From assembly GCA_009885735.1 (NCBI GenBank), contig VFKD01000217.1, positions 1 to 37,269 of the forward strand: DNA of 37,269 nt, read 5' to 3'. Of this stretch, positions 25,918 to 36,725 are shown one piece after another. The notes beneath the pieces were generated by a model that did not search any database, was not told the origin of the DNA, and was given only the letters and a program-made list of their open reading frames with translations. Position 1 is the first letter of the stretch; every line of letters begins with the position of its first letter. Source of the DNA: a bacterium. GTDB taxonomy: Bacteria > Armatimonadota > Chthonomonadetes > Chthonomonadales > CAJBBX01. Made by a program: the position numbers and the translations under genes.

Positions 25918-28872
25918 TTATCGGGACTCATAGGCCTGCACTTCATAGGACTCGAGTGGAGGGCATGAGCAGGCGATGTTGCGGTCTCCATAGACATTGT
26001 CAATTCTGGCTACAGGCGGCCAGTACTTGGACTCATCAAGCCACGCCGCAGGGAAGGCGGCCTGTTCGCGCGAATACGGCCTGTCCCACTCCGTGGCTGT
26101 CACCTGCCGAGCCGTGTGCGGGGCCCGCTTGAGCGGGTTGTTCGCGCGGTCGACCTTGCCCTCCGCGATGGCTGTAATCTCAGCACGGATGGCGATGAGC
26201 GCTGAGCAGAATCGATCCAATTCTCGCATAGATTCACTCTCGGTCGGCTCAATCATGAGTGTACCCGCAACTGGGAAAGAGACTGTGGGGGCGTGAAAGC
26301 CGTAATCCATGAGCCTCTTCGCCACATCCTCAACCTCAACTCCCGACGTTACCTTCAAGGGCCTCAGGTCGATGATGCACTCGTGCGCTACGCGCCCATT
26401 CTTGCCGCGATAGAGCACCGGATAGTGGGGTTCAAGACGCTCCGCCAAATAGTTTGCGTTCAGTATGGCCATTTCAGAGGCATATCGCAGGCCGGCAGAG
26501 CCCATCATTCGAATGTAGGCGTATGAGATTGGTAGGATGCCGGCGCTTCCCCAAGGCGCTGCCGAGACCGGATGGATGGCGCTGGTGCCGCCAACCTGAG
26601 CAAACGGATGGCCGGGCAGAAACGGGCCAAGCTGCTCGGTGGCGCAGATTGGCCCCATGCCGGGCCCGCCTCCGCCATGCGGAATACAGAAAGTCTTGTG
26701 CAGATTGAGGTGGCAGATGTCCGCGCCGAAGTCGCCGGGCCTGCAGAGGCCCACTTGCGCGTTCATGTTCGCGCCGTCCATGTAGACGAGGCCGCCGTGT
26801 TCGTGGATGATCGAACATATCTCCTCAATGCCTTCCTCGAACACGCCGTGGGTGCTCGGATAGGTCACCATGAGGGCCGCTAGAGCCGCTGAGTGCTCGG
26901 CAGCCCGTGACCGCAGGTCGGCCAGATCCACATTCCCGTCCTCATCGCATTTAACCACCACCACGCGCATGCCCACCATGGCTGCGGAGGCAGGGTTTGT
27001 GCCGTGCGCGGACTGCGGAATGAGGCAGACGCTTCGACCTGCGTCTCCGCAAGACAAGTGGAACGCACGAATGACCAGCAGGCCCGCAAACTCGCCCTGG
27101 CTGCCGGCATTTGGCTGCAGCGACACGCATGGGAGGCCGGTGATTGCGGCGAGCATTCGCTCGAGCCTATCAAATAGAGCGGCATAGCCTTGGGCTTGCT
27201 CTGCCGGGGCGAACGGATGCATCTTGCCAAACTCGGGCCAGGTAATCGGTATCATTTCTGCCGCGGCGTTGAGCTTCATGGTGCAGGAGCCGAGCGGGAT
27301 CATTGAGTCAGCAAGCGAAAGGTCCTTCGCCTGGAGCCTGTTCATGTACCGCATGAGTTCGGTTTCAGACCGGTACATCGAGAAGATTGGATGCTTGAGC
27401 GGCGGAGACTCGCGCAGGACGTGTTGCCTGATCGTGAAGGAGCTTTCAATCGTCCCACCCGTAGTGGGCTCCTTGCCGGTAACAGCATAGAAGATATCGC
27501 TTACGTCCTGCTCAGTCGTGGTCTCGTCCAGCGATATCACTATGGCAGAAGTCGAGATGTGCCGCAGGTTGATCTTTAGTTCGGCGCACCGAGCGTGTAT
27601 TCCCGCCTTATCATCCGTATCCACCTGGATTCTGAGGGTATCGAATACCTCTTCGGTGTCTATCGTGACTCCTGCGGATGACAGCCTTTGCGCAAGACCG
27701 ACTGCAAGGCGATTCACTCGTTGAGCAATCCTCCGCAGGCCCTCTGGTCCGTGGTAGAGCGCATACATAGAGGCAACCACGGCCAAAAGCACCTGGGCCG
27801 TGCAGATGTTGCTGGTAGCCTTGTCTCGCCGAATGTGCTGCTCCCTGGTCTGCAGCGCCAGCCGATATCCGGGCCTGCCCTCGGCATCTTTCGACACTCC
27901 CACGATTCGGCCTGGAAGCTTGCGGCTGTGAACTTCCCTGGTGGCAAGGAACGCCGCGTGCGGTCCGCCATAGCCCATTGGCACGCCAAACCGTTGCGTG
28001 CTGCCCACCACGATGTCTGCGCCGCACTCGCCAGGTGGTCGCAGAAGCGCCAGGCTGAGGATGTCCGCGGCAACTACAGCCATTGCGCCGGCCGAATGAA
28101 CAGCTTGTACGAAGCGCCCAACATCGCGCAGCCTGCCGTCTGTGGCCGGACACTGCATGAGGGCGCCGAAAACAGGTTCGCACGCCTGAAACTCATCCGG
28201 ATCACCCCTCACGATGCGTATTCCGAGCGGCTCAGCGCGGCCCTGAATTACGGAAATCGTTTGGGGATGGCAGTCATTCGCCACGAAGAACGCATTTGCG
28301 TCACCGGGATGAATGTGCCGTGCGAGCGCCATCGCTTCGGCTGCAGCCGTGGCCTCGTCCAGCAGCGAGGCGGTTGCAATCTCCATTCCAGTCAGCTCGA
28401 CGACCATGGTTTGGAAATTGAGCAGGGCTTCTAGGCGGCCCTGCGAGACCTCGGCCTGATAGGGAGTGTAGGGCGTGTACCAGCGCGGATCCTCGAGGAC
28501 GTTTCGGAGGATAACCGGGGGCGTAATGCAGTCCGAATAGCCGCAGCCTAGATAGCTCCGCCAGACTTCATTGCGCGACGCGACATCTCTCATCTCGGCG
28601 AGCGCGGCATGTTCGGAGAGGCCGCAGCCCGTGGCGCAGCTCAGCAAGTCTGCCTCGGACCGGATACCTCGGGGCAGTGTCTCGGCAATGAGCGCATCGA
28701 CAGACTCGGCTCGAACCACGGCGAGCATCGACGGGATGTCGCTTTGGCGGGGACCAATGTGCCGCCACACAAATGAGTCTGGAGGGATTATGTCGTCCAG
28801 TGAGAGACCTCGGAGTGGGGTTCGAATACTACTTGACGGGCTCGTCCACCAGCGCGGCATACGCGGATGCAT
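25918..28872 (-). CDS. gcvP: Glycine dehydrogenase (decarboxylating), full-length single-chain P protein
   Basis: RHIGP N-terminus, [37 protein letters not shown]-Lys motif [22 protein letters not shown]. Start uncertain; overlaps the gcvH end. Confidence 0.97.
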
Positions 28873-29224
28873 CCATCAGGCTGTCCAGCTCGGCCAGGTT
28901 CTGCATTCGGACGCGAATCATCCAGCCCCTGCCATAGGGATCTTGGTTCACGAGTTCCGTCTGGTCTCCAAGCTCGGTGTTCGTCTCTTCAACCAAGCCT
29001 GTCAGCGGGCTATAAAGGTCGGAAACGGCCTTCACGGACTCTACCGCGCCAAAGGTCGCATCCTTTGCGAGCACACGTCCGGCCTCCGGCAACTCAACAT
29101 AGACAATATCTCCAAGCTCGGCCTGGGCATGGTCCGTGATGCCGACTGTCGCTAAATCTCCAACAACGCGCACCCACTCATGGCTCTCGGAATAACGGAG
29201 GTCGGCTGCAACAGCCATTCGCAT
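28829..29224 (-). CDS. gcvH: Glycine cleavage system H protein
   Basis: SESHEWVRV...[22 protein letters not shown], lipoyl-Lys motif [15 protein letters not shown]. Confidence 0.97.
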
Positions 29225-29250
29225 CTCCCGGCGCCCTGGACGAGCGCACG

Positions 29251-30336
29251 CTAGTCTGAAATAAGATCCTTCTTGGGAACCACAATTGCCTGATGGCGCC
29301 TACCGCGTACATCTACATCTACCAGCGAACCCTTGCGATGGAAAGGCGGCTGGAGGTAGGCCATGCCCAGTCCAACGCCTCTGACTGGCGAAAAGACGCC
29401 GCTCGTAACGGTTCCAACCACCTCGGCCCCGCTGAACAGATTATACCCCTGCCGAGGAACGATTCTCTCGCTGAGCCGCAGGCCGACGAGGCGCCTTGAT
29501 GGACCAGACTCGACAACCTCCAGAATGGAGGAGCGGCCCACGAAATCGCCCTTATCCAGCTTCACCACCCACATCAGTCCTGCCTCGACCGGATTCGTAT
29601 CTTCGCCTATCTCATGCCCATAGAGAGGATAGCCGGCCTCGATCCTCAGGGCATCCCGGGCGCCCAAGCCGCATGGAACCGCGCCCGCGGCTAGGAGCTT
29701 CCCCCATACCTCAAGAGCTGCGTCCGCACTCATAACGAGCTCGAAGCCGTCCTCGCCCGTGTATCCTGTTCGGCAATAGAGAACTTCCAAATCGCCCAGG
29801 CGGGTAGTGCCGAAGGTAAACCGGCTGCTCGACCACACGTCCGTCGCTGCCAGGCTCGATAGCATCTGGACTGCTGCCGGCCCCTGCAGAGCGATCATCG
29901 CGGTTGACGTGGTCTCGTCGGCTAGGACGACATCCTTGCCATGGTTGGCGCGAAGCCACGCCAGGTCCTTCTCAGCATTTCCGGCATTGATGACTAAGTA
30001 GAATTCATGGGAGGAGACGCGGTACACGATGATGTCGTCGATGATTCCGCCGTGGTTATTAGTGAGCAGCGAATAATGCGCGCAGCCTGGCGCAAGACCT
30101 CGGATGTCGTTCGGGGTGAGATAGTCTAGAAAGGCTTCTGCGCCAGGACCGCTTACTCGAACTCGCCCCATGTGGCTGATGTCGAATATCCCGGCGCCGG
30201 ATCGCACCGCGCGGGCTTCTTCCAGAATGCCAGCGTACTGCACGGGCATCTCCCAGCCGGCAAACGGGACCATGCGCGCACCAAGCTCAACGTGTGCGGA
30301 GTAGAGCGGCGTACGTCGGGAGCTATCGTCCGTCAT
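29251..30336 (-). CDS. gcvT: Aminomethyltransferase, glycine cleavage T protein
   Basis: MVPFAGWEMPVQY, GIFDISHMGRVRVSGPGAEAFLDYL, TGYTGEDGFEL, RIEAGYPLYGHEI. Confidence 0.97.
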   Translation of the reverse strand: MTDDSSRRTPLYSAHVELGARMVPFAGWEMPVQYAGILEEARAVRSGAGIFDISHMGRVRVSGPGAEAFLDYLTPNDIRGLAPGCAHYSLLTNNHGGIIDDIIVYRVSSHEFYLVINAGNAEKDLAWLRANHGKDVVLADETTSTAMIALQGPAAVQMLSSLAATDVWSSSRFTFGTTRLGDLEVLYCRTGYTGEDGFELVMSADAALEVWGKLLAAGAVPCGLGARDALRIEAGYPLYGHEIGEDTNPVEAGLMWVVKLDKGDFVGRSSILEVVESGPSRRLVGLRLSERIVPRQGYNLFSGAEVVGTVTSGVFSPVRGVGLGMAYLQPPFHRKGSLVDVDVRGRRHQAIVVPKKDLISD

Positions 30337-31151
30337 AAGTGCAGCCCTTCGTTCGGATCAACAAGGCGCAGCCTGCCGAACACCACGGCGGTGCCGTCCC
30401 GAATCTCTACCTTCTCAAGAGTGAATGACTTCCCCAGGCCCAAGTCTCGGTCGATGTCGAGGATCGGATTTAAGGTTCGGAGGATATTGCGCGCGAAGGC
30501 TTCAGGCACGGGCCGTCCATTTACCTTCACGACTGCCTCCTCCAGGAAGAGGTATCTGCCCTCTCGGGGAACTGCCTTCGCTGTCGCCTCGGCAAGGATA
30601 ACTGCGCCAAGAACCGAAACCTCCGCGCGAACAAATGCTGTACCATTCGTGAGGCGCACCTCTAGGATCTTCGTCATTGGGAACTTGGCCTGCAGGAACG
30701 AGCGCAGCGCCTCTTCGCTAACTTCCGCCTCGGCAGTCCCCTCCCCTGCCCTGCGGATGACGATATGTCCGCCGAATGCCGCATGGTTCGAATCAAAGTC
30801 GACGTTTGGCAGCGACGCCTTGAACCTTACAAGCCTAAGGTTTCTCAGGCTTGTGTCTGTGAGAGAAATTTCCAGCTTGCGAATATGAGCTAGGGGACCT
30901 CTGCCTGAGTGGATTCGCAGTGGAAGCATGTCCGCGCGAATTCCTGAGCCAGTGATCTGCGTGATGGACGATCGGCCCGCGAGAAGGCCGAAGGCGCCGC
31001 TCGGCTCCACTCTTGTCCTGAGCATTCCGCCGACGAGTGTCTTTCGCAGGTCTCGCTTCAGCACGCTCTCGGCCCGCTGCTGCGCGAGGCCTGAGAAGAG
31101 CGCGAGCCCAAGAAGTGCAAACGCAGCATCGCGAAGACCGTCGCTACTCAC
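30333..31151 (-). CDS. DUF2993/LmeA-like exported protein
   Basis: N-terminal hydrophobic segment followed by repeated LmeA/DUF2993-type pattern (ITGSGIRADMLPLRIHSGRGPLAHIRKLEISLTDTSLRNLRLVRFKASLPNVDF). GTG at 31151 overlaps the livF stop; its end overlaps the gcvT ATG (ATGA). The ORF track extends it upstream to 31271 inside livF. Confidence 0.7.
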   Translation of the reverse strand: MSSDGLRDAAFALLGLALFSGLAQQRAESVLKRDLRKTLVGGMLRTRVEPSGAFGLLAGRSSITQITGSGIRADMLPLRIHSGRGPLAHIRKLEISLTDTSLRNLRLVRFKASLPNVDFDSNHAAFGGHIVIRRAGEGTAEAEVSEEALRSFLQAKFPMTKILEVRLTNGTAFVRAEVSVLGAVILAEATAKAVPREGRYLFLEEAVVKVNGRPVPEAFARNILRTLNPILDIDRDLGLGKSFTLEKVEIRDGTAVVFGRLRLVDPNEGLHL

Positions 31152-31848
31152 CGAGATAGGCCTTGCGCACGTCATCGTTAGCGAGCAGGTTCTGTGCGGT
31201 ATCTTCAAGGACCACCCTGCCGGTCTCCAGCACGTAGCCGCGTGCGGCGACGCGGAGCGCTTGGAAAGCATTCTGCTCGACCAGCAAGACCGTCACGCCC
31301 TGAGCGTTGATGTCCCGGATTATCTGGAATATCTGCTGCACCAAGAACGGCGCGAGACCTAGCGACGGCTCATCCAGCATGAGCAGCCTCGGGCGCGACA
31401 TCAGGGCCCTTCCGATAGCAAGCATCTGCTGCTCTCCTCCCGAGAGCGTGCCGGCGGATTGAGTAAATCGCTCCTTTAGCCTCGGAAAGAGCTGGAGCAC
31501 GCGGTCCACATCTTCCGCAATCCCGCTGCCCTTCTTCCGGGTGTATGCGCCCATCTCAATGTTCTCGCGCACGCTCATGCTTGCGAACACACGGCGGCCC
31601 TCGGGCGACTGGCAGATGCCGCGCTGAACAACAAGGTGAGGGGCAAGGCGGGTTATATCCTCGCCCTCAAACATTATGCGGCCCGACCTGGGCCGAACCA
31701 GGGCTGAGACTGAGCGGATGGTGGTGCTCTTGCCTGCTCCATTTGCACCGATCATCGTGACGATCTCGCCCTGATTCACCGTGAGGCTCACCTGCTCGAG
31801 TGCATGGATAGCGCCGTAATAGACGTCGATCTTCTCTAGAGTTAGCAC
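31144..31848 (-). CDS. livF: Branched-chain amino acid-type ABC transporter ATP-binding protein LivF
   Basis: Walker A GANGAGKSTT, signature LSGGEQQMLAIGRAL, Walker B LLMLDEPSLGLAP; LivF-typical YGAIHALEQVSLTV. Confidence 0.95.
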   Translation of the reverse strand: MLTLEKIDVYYGAIHALEQVSLTVNQGEIVTMIGANGAGKSTTIRSVSALVRPRSGRIMFEGEDITRLAPHLVVQRGICQSPEGRRVFASMSVRENIEMGAYTRKKGSGIAEDVDRVLQLFPRLKERFTQSAGTLSGGEQQMLAIGRALMSRPRLLMLDEPSLGLAPFLVQQIFQIIRDINAQGVTVLLVEQNAFQALRVAARGYVLETGRVVLEDTAQNLLANDDVRKAYLGE

Positions 31849-31875: not shown

Positions 31876-33948
31876 CTAGCCACTTGCGGCCTCTTCACCC
31901 AGATAGGCGGCAATCACCTTCGGGTCTCGTCGGATCGCCTCTGGGCTGCCCTGGGCGATGATCACTCCATAGTCCAGGACGTATATCCTCTCACAAATTC
32001 CCATCACGACCTTCATGTCGTGCTCAATGAGCAGTATCGTCAGTCCAAATTCATCTCGGATGCCGCGGATGCACTCCATCAGCTCCGACTTCTCTTGCGG
32101 GTTCATTCCGGCGGCCGGCTCGTCCAGCAGAAGCAACTTCGGGCGCGTAGCCAATGCGCGGGCGATCTCCAATCGCCTCTGCGCGCCGTATGGCAGCCCG
32201 CCGGCCTGTTCATCCGCTACAGAGCCTAGGTCGAAACGCTCGAGCAGCTTCATTGCGTGGGCGCGCTGCTCATGCTCCTCCCGGTCCATGCGAACCGTTT
32301 GCATCAACGCATCGAAGAGCTTGGTCTTGCGCTTTCCGTAGCTGCCTACCAGAACATTCTCGATGACGCTCAGGTCCGGAAACAGACGAATGTTCTGGAA
32401 CGTACGCGAAATTCCAAGGTTGCAGAACTGAAATGGACGCAATCCGGGTCTGTTGCGACGCCGGCCCTTGGAAGTGACGAGAGAGACCGCTGCAGCAAGG
32501 CCCGTGATCGCTAAGACCATCGGTGACTTGATAGACATGCTGAAGACGCTCATCATCGCGGCTGGAGCGACATTGAGCGGCAGCGAGTAGATTACCGTAG
32601 CCCCAATGTAGCCCACTAGGCCGCATAGTGCGGCATCCAGCCCAATGAGCCCTGCTCTCGCCGATGGAGAATAGGGCTGGTCCCCTGCAATCTGTTTTCC
32701 GGCTAGCCGGACAGCGCCGGATGACGGCTCATAGACTCCCGTCAGGAGATTAAACACGGTGGTCTTGCCCGCCCCATTTGGGCCGATCAGGCCGACGAGT
32801 TCACCAGTTCGAAGCTGAAGATTGAAGTTATCTACGGCCACAAGTCCGCCAAATCGCCGCGTCACTCCCTCGCAATTGAGAATCTCGTGTGTGCCGACTG
32901 GCGGGGCGTGCATCGTCGCCCGTGGTTCAGGGGCTGGCGTCGGCGGACGCTTCTTGCGTTTCAACAGCGTGAGTTCGGCTCGCCCCATGAAGCCTTGGGG
33001 GCGCAGCATCATGGTGAGAGTCAGCAGCAGGGCGAACAGCACCAAGCGATATTCGTCCTTGTAGAAGTCCTTTATGATGCCGACGTTGGCGGTGCGCAGC
33101 CACTCCGGAAGCGCGGTGAAGAACACGGCCGTGAGGACTGCCCCCGTGATGCTCCCCAAGCCCCCAAGGACCACCATCACCACGATATTGATCGACATCA
33201 CGAAGTTGAACGACTTCGGAAGGATGAACTGCTCGTTGTGCGCATACAAACTTCCGGCGGCGCCAGCCAGAAACGCGGCCAGGACGAACGCGGTCACCTT
33301 CACTTGGGTGGTGTTGACCCCCATCGCGTCGGCGGCCACCTCGTCTTCTCGCACCGAGAGGAACGCGAGGCCGTGAAGAGATCGCTTTAGATTGCGAGAG
33401 ATACCGATGGTCACCGCTGCGAGACCAAAGACCCAAAAGAAGCTCGTCAGCTTCGGGATGCCGCTGAAGCCGATCGCTCCTCCCAGGAACTCCGTCATCG
33501 GCAGCATGCTTGTGTTCTCCAGGAGAACACGAATGATCTCGCCGAAACCGAGCGTCACGATGGCGAGATAGTCCCCTCTCAGCCTCAGGCTGGGAACGCC
33601 AACGATCCACCCAAAGAGAGCCGATGCTGCTCCGCCAACGATGCACGAGAGAACCAGACCCATTCCATTCTGTAATCCAGGAAACTTGAACGTGATTGCG
33701 GCGCCCACATAAGCGCCTACCGCAAGGAAGCCGGCGTGGCCGATGGAGAACTGACCGGTGAAACCGTTGACGATGTTGAGGCTCACCGACAGGGTGACGA
33801 ATATGCCGGATAGAAGCAGCACCCTCAGCATGAACGGGTTGAATGCAGGCTGCCCATCGGGGCGCCTAACGTTCAGAAAGGCGTCCAGGCCATACAACAA
33901 GCCGGCGATGACAACGCAGAGACCGATCTGCTTGGCTAGCTTGGCCAT
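31876..33948 (-). CDS. livM-livG: LivM permease - LivG ATPase fusion with a hydrophobic insertion inside the ATPase domain
   Basis: LivM motifs (GFTGQFSIGHAGFLAVGAYVGA, LRLRGDYLAIVTLGFGEIIRV) at aa 1-330; LivG domain from about aa 354 with Walker A GPNGAGKTT, RTFQNIRLFPDLSVIENVLVG, LPYGAQRRLEIARAL, LLLLDEPAAGMNP. Confidence 0.95.
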   Translation of the reverse strand: MAKLAKQIGLCVVIAGLLYGLDAFLNVRRPDGQPAFNPFMLRVLLLSGIFVTLSVSLNIVNGFTGQFSIGHAGFLAVGAYVGAAITFKFPGLQNGMGLVLSCIVGGAASALFGWIVGVPSLRLRGDYLAIVTLGFGEIIRVLLENTSMLPMTEFLGGAIGFSGIPKLTSFFWVFGLAAVTIGISRNLKRSLHGLAFLSVREDEVAADAMGVNTTQVKVTAFVLAAFLAGAAGSLYAHNEQFILPKSFNFVMSINIVVMVVLGGLGSITGAVLTAVFFTALPEWLRTANVGIIKDFYKDEYRLVLFALLLTLTMMLRPQGFMGRAELTLLKRKKRPPTPAPEPRATMHAPPVGTHEILNCEGVTRRFGGLVAVDNFNLQLRTGELVGLIGPNGAGKTTVFNLLTGVYEPSSGAVRLAGKQIAGDQPYSPSARAGLIGLDAALCGLVGYIGATVIYSLPLNVAPAAMMSVFSMSIKSPMVLAITGLAAAVSLVTSKGRRRNRPGLRPFQFCNLGISRTFQNIRLFPDLSVIENVLVGSYGKRKTKLFDALMQTVRMDREEHEQRAHAMKLLERFDLGSVADEQAGGLPYGAQRRLEIARALATRPKLLLLDEPAAGMNPQEKSELMECIRGIRDEFGLTILLIEHDMKVVMGICERIYVLDYGVIIAQGSPEAIRRDPKVIAAYLGEEAASG

Positions 33949-33952
33949 CTGG

Positions 33953-35110
33953 CTAGACCTTCTCCACTGTGTACTTGCCTAGCAGGCCGGCAGGCCTAAA
34001 CAGCAGTATGGCAATGAGGATGACAAAGGCGATCGCATCCTTGAAGGAGCTGAATGGGGAGCCTGCGATGAATGTTTCGGCAACACCCATAATGACGCCG
34101 CCAAGCACTGCTCCACCCAGATTGCCGATGCCGCCCAGCACTGCCGCTACGAAGGCCTTGAGCCCGAACATAATCCCGGTGTTCGTATCGAAGCTGAACT
34201 GAGTGAGGCCGTAGTTCAGGAATCCGCCAGCGCCGGCCATCGCGGACCCTATCAGAAACGTGAAGGAGATCACGGTGTTGGTATTAATCCCCATCAATGC
34301 TGCCGCCTCGCGGTCGTAAGCGACCGCTCGCATCGCCTTTCCCATCCTGGTTCGGCGCACGATATACATCAATAGGGTGACCAGCACAATGGCGGAGACC
34401 AACACGATCACCTGTCCCCTGTTGACGCTGATCGCTAGACCCAGAACGTTGAGGTTGAGGGTCGCTCCCACCAGTTCCTGGCCCCCTGGGAGCGATGCAA
34501 TGGAGTAGGCCTGCGTTCTTGCTCCGAAGACCGCCTGGCCGCCGTTTTCGAGCAGAAGCGAGACGCCGATCGCAGTGATGAGTGCGGTCAGCCTGCCGGT
34601 TCCCCGAATCGGCTTATAGGCGGTTCGCTCAATGATGACCCCGAGAGCCGCGCACCAGCCGACGCTCACCATCACCGACACCGCACCGCCCACCAAGACA
34701 GAGGTCTGGGCGACGCTCGTGAGCCCACCGAACAACTTCTCGCCCACTAGCACGAAGGCCGAACAGAGTGTTTTTAGAAGGACGAAGGCTAAGCCAAAGC
34801 CTGCAAGCCTGAGGCCCACGGCTCGCGGGTTCCGCAGATTGCCGCGCAGGCTTACAATGAGCCCAACCATCAGGACCATCGCGAGCACAACCACGAGCGC
34901 GTCCTGATCGATATTGGCGGGATGAAAGCCAAGAACGACGAACATGCCCATATAGGCGCCTATCATATAGACGTCGCCATGGGCGAAGTTGATGAACTTG
35001 AGGACACCATAGACCATCGTGTAGCCTATAGCGATGAGAGCATAGACGCTTCCGAGCTGAATGCCGTTGACCAGTTGTTGAACGAACAGTTGAAGCGTCT
35101 GATCTTCCAA
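33953..35110 (-). CDS. livH: Branched-chain amino acid-type ABC transporter permease LivH with an extra hydrophobic segment
   Basis: NGIQLGSVYALIAIGYTMVYGVLKFINFAHGDVYMIGAY, ERTAYKPIRGTGRLTALITAIGVSLLLEN, GLKAFVAAVLGGIGNLGGAVLGG; 385 aa. Confidence 0.95.
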   Translation of the reverse strand: MEDQTLQLFVQQLVNGIQLGSVYALIAIGYTMVYGVLKFINFAHGDVYMIGAYMGMFVVLGFHPANIDQDALVVVLAMVLMVGLIVSLRGNLRNPRAVGLRLAGFGLAFVLLKTLCSAFVLVGEKLFGGLTSVAQTSVLVGGAVSVMVSVGWCAALGVIIERTAYKPIRGTGRLTALITAIGVSLLLENGGQAVFGARTQAYSIASLPGGQELVGATLNLNVLGLAISVNRGQVIVLVSAIVLVTLLMYIVRRTRMGKAMRAVAYDREAAALMGINTNTVISFTFLIGSAMAGAGGFLNYGLTQFSFDTNTGIMFGLKAFVAAVLGGIGNLGGAVLGGVIMGVAETFIAGSPFSSFKDAIAFVILIAILLFRPAGLLGKYTVEKV

Positions 35111-35543: not shown

Positions 35544-36725
35544 CTAGTTCGGAGCAACTGTTGCCATGTAGACAAACTTGCGCCCTTTTATCTGCAGCAT
35601 CACGGCGGACTTGTCTGCATTCCTGTCAGAGTTCATGGTGATGGTGCCGGTCACTCCCTTGTACCCGGAGGTCTTGGCAAGTTCGTCCCGCAGTGACGGA
35701 CCGTCAATCACCTTCACTCGCTTCATTGCCTCGGCCACTATCATCATGGCGTCGTATCCCAAAGCAGTGAGCGCCCCTGGGGTCTTGTCCGCGCCGTATT
35801 TTGCGCGGTATGCGTCCACAAAGGACTTGACGGCAGGCGCCGGGTCGTCCACCGCCATGTGGTTGCTGAAGTAGCTTCCCTCCAGTGCGTCCTCGGCGGT
35901 AACGAACAGGTCCTGCGAATCCCATCCGTCTCCGCCCAAGAGAGGCGCGGTGATGCCAAGCTCGCGGGCCTGCTTGCCGATGGACCCAACATTCTTGTAG
36001 TAGCCTGGAACCAAAAGCACGTCGGGGTTTGCCGTCTTGATCTTGGTGAGCTGCCCCTTGAAGTCCGTGTCTGCCGCGGCATATGCCGCCTCGGAGACAA
36101 TCTTGCCGCCCATTTGCTCGAAGTTCTTCTTGAACTCGGAGCCGAAGTCCTTGCTGTATGGACTCGCGTTGTCCACGAAGATCGCAGCGGTTGTCTTCTT
36201 GAGGTTCTCTCGGGCGAACTTAGCGACTACGTAGGCCTGGAACGGGTCGATGAAGCAGACTCGAAAGATGTAGTCGCCCTGCTGTGTCACCTTAATGTTG
36301 GTGGACGAGGGCGAGACCATCGGGACTTTGTTGGACTGGCAAATCGGCGCGGCGGCGAGGCTTAGCCCGCTCGCGACCTCTCCAATGACGGCTACCACCT
36401 TGTCATTCGTGATGAGCTTGGTCACCGCGTTTGCTGCCTTCGCCGGATCGCTCTCGGTATTCTCCGCTCGCAGTTCGATATTCTTGCCGTTGATGCCGCC
36501 GGCCTTGTTGATCACTTCGATAGCGATGTCAATACCTTCGTGCGTGCTCTTGCCAAAGTCGGCCTCGCTGCCGCTCTCGGAGAGGTAGGAGCCGACCAGA
36601 ATTGTGTCGCCGGTACCACCGCCACCGGTTCCGCCGCTCTGCGGCGCCGAGTTGCAGCCCGATAGGACGATCAACCCAAGCAGGCCCGCCAACCATGAGG
36701 CGGTGTGCAAACGTCTATTGTGCAT
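35544..36725 (-). CDS. livK: Branched-chain amino acid-type ABC transporter substrate-binding lipoprotein
   Basis: Lipobox LSGC (GLIVLSGCNSAP), then ILVGSYLSESGSEADFGKSTHEGIDIAIEVINKAGGINGKNIEL, typical of the periplasmic-binding LivK/LivJ family. Confidence 0.93.
   Translation of the reverse strand: MHNRRLHTASWLAGLLGLIVLSGCNSAPQSGGTGGGGTGDTILVGSYLSESGSEADFGKSTHEGIDIAIEVINKAGGINGKNIELRAENTESDPAKAANAVTKLITNDKVVAVIGEVASGLSLAAAPICQSNKVPMVSPSSTNIKVTQQGDYIFRVCFIDPFQAYVVAKFARENLKKTTAAIFVDNASPYSKDFGSEFKKNFEQMGGKIVSEAAYAAADTDFKGQLTKIKTANPDVLLVPGYYKNVGSIGKQARELGITAPLLGGDGWDSQDLFVTAEDALEGSYFSNHMAVDDPAPAVKSFVDAYRAKYGADKTPGALTALGYDAMMIVAEAMKRVKVIDGPSLRDELAKTSGYKGVTGTITMNSDRNADKSAVMLQIKGRKFVYMATVAPN

Follow-up and report, generated by a model that had tools for sequence, protein, structure and literature searches.

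The window analysed here, the whole stretch of 37,269 nucleotides, carries a Liv-type operon on the minus strand (36725-31144) that consists of genes for a binding protein, LivH, a LivM-LivG fusion and LivF. The first gene (35544-36725, minus) encodes a periplasmic binding protein of the branched-chain amino-acid type (LivJ/K-like; Pfam Peripla_BP_6, 1.3e-64). It is followed by the gene for the permease partner LivH (33953-35110, minus), whose best stretch of match to Pfam BPD_transp_2 starts past a LivH insert described below, by the fusion gene (31876-33948, minus), and by the gene for the second ATPase, LivF (31144-31848, minus; Pfam ABC_tran), which is without an insert. The other permease loci of this genome that were read contained no second Liv-type ATPase. 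Directly downstream of livF lies a gene for an LmeA-like phospholipid-binding protein (PF11209; 30333-31271, minus), whose frame overlaps the end of livF. The Liv operon is followed by genes for glycine cleavage, namely gcvT, gcvH and gcvP, the last encoding a single chain of 984 residues (25918-30336, minus). The name gcvP was given from the sequence itself, and as the listed gcvP frame overlaps the end of gcvH, its start is probably further in.

The fusion gene is a single open frame of 690 codons. Its product comprises a LivM permease domain (aa ~1-330), a Pro-rich linker (~331-352) and a LivG ATPase domain (~353-690), with Pfam matches to BPD_transp_2 (1.8e-37) and ABC_tran (5.3e-29). The initial annotation had described the frame as intact and the catalytic motifs as retained, and this proved to be so; the frame stays open between 33948 and 31876, and all five ABC motifs were located. 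Walker A (GPNGAGKTT, aa 389-397; 32758-32784, minus) and the Q-loop strand (RTFQNI, aa 515-520, with RTFQ at 515-518; 32389-32406, minus) are invariant in our alignment. The signature LPYGAQRR (585-592), Walker B LLLLDEP (605-611) and the H-loop IEHDM (641-645) lie within 32014-32196 (minus), and a BCA_ABC_TP_C tail (PF12399) is present at aa 663-688 (9.8e-12; 44.7 bits against a cut-off of 25.5). Against the NCBIfam LivG equivalog NF008449, the fusion scored 302.4 bits, below the cut-off of 362. Both this profile and that of UrtD matched the fusion in two pieces, the second of which starts at the end of an insert in the ATPase domain. Judged by profile matches, the nearest family of the fusion ATPase is the LivG of NF008449, though the protein stays below the level set for the strict equivalog.

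The insert consists of aa 423-501 (32446-32682, minus) and is situated between Walker A and the Q-loop. These coordinates are exactly those given in the initial annotation, which had placed the segment correctly and put its length at about 78 residues; the translation gives 79. Its further statement that canonical LivG has only a short linker at this position agrees with a comparison of 80 homologous loci from GTDB genomes, in which the spacer from Walker A to RTFQ was 37 residues in nearly all LivGs, against 117 in the fusion. The insert ends 13 residues ahead of the invariant RTFQ. We could not assign it to a known domain. The best Pfam match was PetN with an E value of 0.031, which is unconvincing, and the inserts of the other groups described below were likewise without a convincing match. 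Matches in the PDB were obtained only at E values of about 0.9. With Foldseek, the closest solved folds were domains of the MJ1267/LptB type, with the insert appearing as unmatched extra columns. A separate tblastn search of plasmids returned only distant homologs.

We examined 101 genomes around the window, and found 13 LivM-LivG fusions in families f1 and f3 of its order, Chthonomonadales (Armatimonadota). The insert is present in every one of them (spacer 101-120), including that of a single-contig genome (G015, 3.44 Mb), and this recurrence rules out an assembly error. In the same families, the unfused LivGs that were read (6/6) have the 37-residue spacer and no insert. The insert region is 31-49% identical among the fusions of the order. 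Asp438 is invariant and Arg431 and Gly446 are nearly so, and the loose consensus is R-x6-D-x7-G(G/W)(I/L)(I/V)G-x-I-x2-TS.

Selection on the insert was estimated from sequence pairs with unsaturated dS, all of which come from the Chloroflexota and Planctomycetota, where LivGs with an insert at the same site also occur (see below). In these pairs dN/dS is about 0.35-0.5 in the insert and roughly 0.06-0.15 in the LivG flanks. Pairs from Chthonomonadales have a saturated dS; in these, the insert shows far less nonsynonymous than synonymous difference, but more nonsynonymous difference than the flanks do. Constraint on the hairpin is present but weaker than on the ATPase core, and relaxed purifying selection of this kind matches what is expected of a lipid-facing hairpin. 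The codon-position GC of the insert is close to that of the flanking coding DNA. Taken with the recurrence in 13 genomes and the intact frames and catalytic motifs, these results make it extremely improbable that the insert is an assembly error, a frameshift remnant, an intein- or intron-like element or a product of gene decay, a reading for which the unusual architecture speaks and nothing else does.

The insert had been claimed to contain at least two long apolar stretches. We indeed found two non-overlapping hydrophobic peaks on the Kyte-Doolittle scale, averaged over 19 residues (KD19), with values of 1.79 and 1.78. Among 20,000 shuffled versions of the insert, 51 reached this pair of values, and none of 1,298 soluble 79-residue windows from LivG domains did. 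As single peaks in the soluble domain can reach 1.78, it is the pair and not a single peak that discriminates. The 37-residue spacers do not exceed 1.08, and the native LivM helices in the same protein peak at 1.42-2.23. The two peaks of the window exceed the 1.6 rule of thumb by no more than a moderate margin, and by a rough estimate the insertion energy of each helix is slightly unfavourable, similar to the weaker native LivM helices. Inserts of the Chloroflexota have KD19 values of 1.7-3.35 with mostly favourable estimated insertion energies for the second helix, and those of the Planctomycetes are weaker, with a second peak of about 1.2-2.0.

A structure of the whole window fusion was predicted with AlphaFold2 from a 55-row alignment (mean pLDDT 92.7, pTM 0.91). 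The predicted first helix of the hairpin covers aa 428-458 (32575-32667, minus), with the 1.79 peak in its hydrophobic core (~435-453), and its mean pLDDT by 10-residue block is 73-97, lowest at the C-terminal end. A short helix or turn (aa 462-472; 32533-32565, minus), predicted to lie at the outer face, joins it to the second helix (aa 476-496; 32461-32523, minus), whose core (~473-491) contains the 1.78 peak. Directly past the second helix is the basic stretch KGRRRNRP. A Planctomycete LivG with an unrelated insert at the same site was also predicted to have two long helices (74-95 and 133-157), and their block pLDDT exceeds 90. Among 47 insert-bearing LivGs of three phyla, the density of Lys plus Arg is 0.206 before the first helix, 0.046 in the loop and 0.231 after the second helix, and the flanks exceed the loop in 47/47. 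This positive-inside pattern suggests a hairpin whose two ends are cytoplasmic. The putative membrane helices proposed at the outset are therefore upheld by two long AlphaFold2 helices and positive-inside flanks.

The same data bear on whether the insert might instead form a helical arm, either soluble or interfacial (monotopic or amphipathic), resting on the surface of the membrane or against LivF or LivM rather than spanning the bilayer. The moderate hydrophobicity in the window and the weak values in some Planctomycetes would fit such an arm, as would a Trp-rich insert of 32-34 residues at the same site in some Anaerolineae, which has no transmembrane-like peak where scored (L035), and there is a precedent in the soluble arm inside the ABC domain of ABC-F proteins. 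On the other hand, the two 19-residue apolar peaks and the Lys/Arg-poor loop are found in all 47 sequences, and the hydrophobicity and second-helix energies of the Chloroflexota inserts argue for spanning helices. We consider an interfacial arm rather unlikely, and a transmembrane hairpin the better reading.

As every insert in the order occurs in a fusion, we considered whether the insert is tied to the joining of LivM to LivG. This holds inside Chthonomonadales and fails elsewhere. Twelve LivM-LivG fusions with a 37-residue spacer and no insert were present in Synergistota, Desulfovibrionaceae, Nitrospinota and others (L003, L005, L018, L041-43, L046, L051, L060, L065, L066 and L096), and 35 inserts were found without a detected fusion. 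Since insert-free fusions are common outside the order, fusion and hairpin are separable traits. It is also hardly credible that the hairpin substitutes for transmembrane helices that LivM or LivH has lost. Such a swap is conceivable in a fused transporter, and the idea has that plausibility on its side, but the LivM of the window, with approximately 10 predicted helices, is similar in length to unfused LivM, and LivH has gained a hydrophobic stretch and lost none.

The stretch gained by LivH differs within the order. In the window (aa 64-142; 34685-34921) and in locus L083, a hydrophobic insert of ~75 residues precedes ERTAYKP. In other order members, the hydrophobic insert of LivH is a different one that follows ERLAYRPLRN; the LivH of L086 has neither. 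These alignment patterns indicate that hairpin-like inserts arose in LivH at two sites, independently of the LivG insert. A linkage between LivG and LivH hairpins was considered and rejected, as the LivG insert of L086 occurs without one in LivH, and L102-104, L108 and L111 display the reverse.

Inserts of ~71-90 residues at the same site were identified in LivGs of the Chloroflexota (matches in 20/350 genomes, 19 LivGs read completely) and the Planctomycetota (matches in 13/343 genomes, 12 LivGs read completely); as one query was used per phylum, the genome counts are lower bounds. No LivM homology was detected in frame upstream of these LivGs by BLAST against the LivM of the window, a search that distant fusions could escape, and they appear to be unfused. 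The architecture, initially described as unusual, is not a standard feature of LivG; it is not unique either, having arisen at the same site in other phyla. No homology between the inserts of different phyla was detectable, with hhalign probabilities below 1%, compared to 99.6-100% for halves of one group. In a LivG tree from which the insert was left out, the insert-bearing proteins of Chthonomonadales form one clade (96*), and a branch at 96* parts them from the insert-bearing proteins of the other two phyla. A single clade for all inserts was rejected by the AU test (p = 0.022), which points to at least two acquisitions at one site. The inserts of the Chloroflexota and Planctomycetota may share one origin.

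Shorter inserts of 32-34 residues are found at the same site in LivGs of the Chloroflexota, mostly Anaerolineae (L004, L006, L007, L081 and L035). Four of the five are Trp-rich, and no transmembrane-like peak was seen in the one that was scored (L035). It is possible that this short insert is an interfacial relative or an intermediate of the hairpin.

A further alternative gives the hairpin a role in regulation or coupling, in which it would sense the conformation of the permease or the lipids and signal to the Q-loop, rather than act as a mere anchor. The short distance to RTFQ, the adjoining coupling-helix site, and a pair of conserved polar residues, Asp and Arg, spaced by two turns of the first helix would all suit such a function. 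However, the insert evolves faster than the surrounding domain and its sequence is unrelated between phyla, and on these grounds we favour a generic membrane role and regard a dedicated coupling element as improbable.

Taking these results together, we consider it likely that the insert is a transmembrane hairpin that anchors LivG in the membrane beside the permease. The apolar peaks, the charge pattern and the predicted helices strongly suggest that the hairpin actually enters the membrane; its placement beside LivM and its anchoring function we infer. In this model, the hairpin would exit the nucleotide-binding domain of LivG right before the strand running into the Q-loop. The long first helix would cross the membrane, the short Lys/Arg-poor outer loop would turn, and the second helix would return to the basic cytoplasmic stretch ahead of the Q-loop. 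Strand S5 of CFTR NBD1 (488-491) is part of the coupling-helix site (PMC3776845), so the exit of the insert, next to a strand that motif spacing suggests to be the S5 equivalent, plausibly faces the membrane. LivG would thereby become an integral membrane protein, with the hairpin most likely adjoining the transmembrane bundle of LivM and LivH, and the likeliest task of the hairpin would be to keep the ATPase docked on the permease and stabilise the complex. In this lineage, the covalent fusion of LivM to LivG would do the same job at the other end of the domain, and with LivM already fused, a further anchor seems superfluous. In those insert-bearing loci that were checked, the LivF spacer from Walker A to PEGR is 38-39 residues, and as LivF is without an insert, the LivG/LivF pair would be asymmetric. 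A broader proposal, which we put forward as a doubtful one, is that transmembrane hairpins converged on one hot spot ahead of the Q-loop and can make importer ATPases integral subunits, with this second link between the nucleotide-binding domain and the membrane helping to couple ATP binding to movement of the permease on the LivG side only.

In the textbook view, the ATPases of ABC importers are soluble subunits, held at the membrane only through docking on the permease. The insert-bearing LivG ATPases are probably themselves anchored in the membrane. If so, a recurrent and conserved transmembrane hairpin inside the ATPase breaks the soluble-subunit rule and marks a structurally permissive, membrane-facing site adjoining the Q-loop. 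The natural constructs with and without the hairpin, fused and unfused, could then be used to test how far coupling in importers depends on docking of the nucleotide-binding domain. In the openly accessible full-text literature, we found no description of a transmembrane insertion in LivG or another ABC ATPase domain.

Among known systems, the closest is the LivG family of HAAT importer ATPases itself (NF008449/PRK11300, including E. coli LivG and M. jannaschii MJ1267, PDB 1g6h/1gaj), with which the window protein shares the ABC fold and motifs, the BCA_ABC_TP_C tail and the operon partners. It differs in the ~80 extra residues before the Q-loop, the predicted transmembrane hairpin and the fusion to LivM. 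For MJ1267, a "LivG insert" specific to domains of the LivG type has been described, which corresponds to the site that binds the coupling helix in other ABC domains (cited in PMC3776845). That element is a normal feature of LivG of canonical length, whereas the insert of the window is additional and N-terminal to the Q-loop. The MJ1267 element presumably lies C-terminal to the Q-loop, at window aa ~539-563. The regulatory insertion of CFTR NBD1 (residues 405-436; PMC3776845) is similarly an extra segment inside an ABC nucleotide-binding domain, but it is disordered, soluble and phosphoregulated, and occupies a different position in the domain. The insert-free Liv fusions of Synergistota, Desulfovibrionaceae and others likewise join LivM to LivG, but retain the 37-residue spacer. 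ABC-F proteins carry a helical-hairpin arm inside the ABC domain, which is soluble and binds the ribosome, and they are not known to associate with permeases. Their arm and the predicted hairpin of the window are alike in emerging as helices from an ABC ATPase domain.
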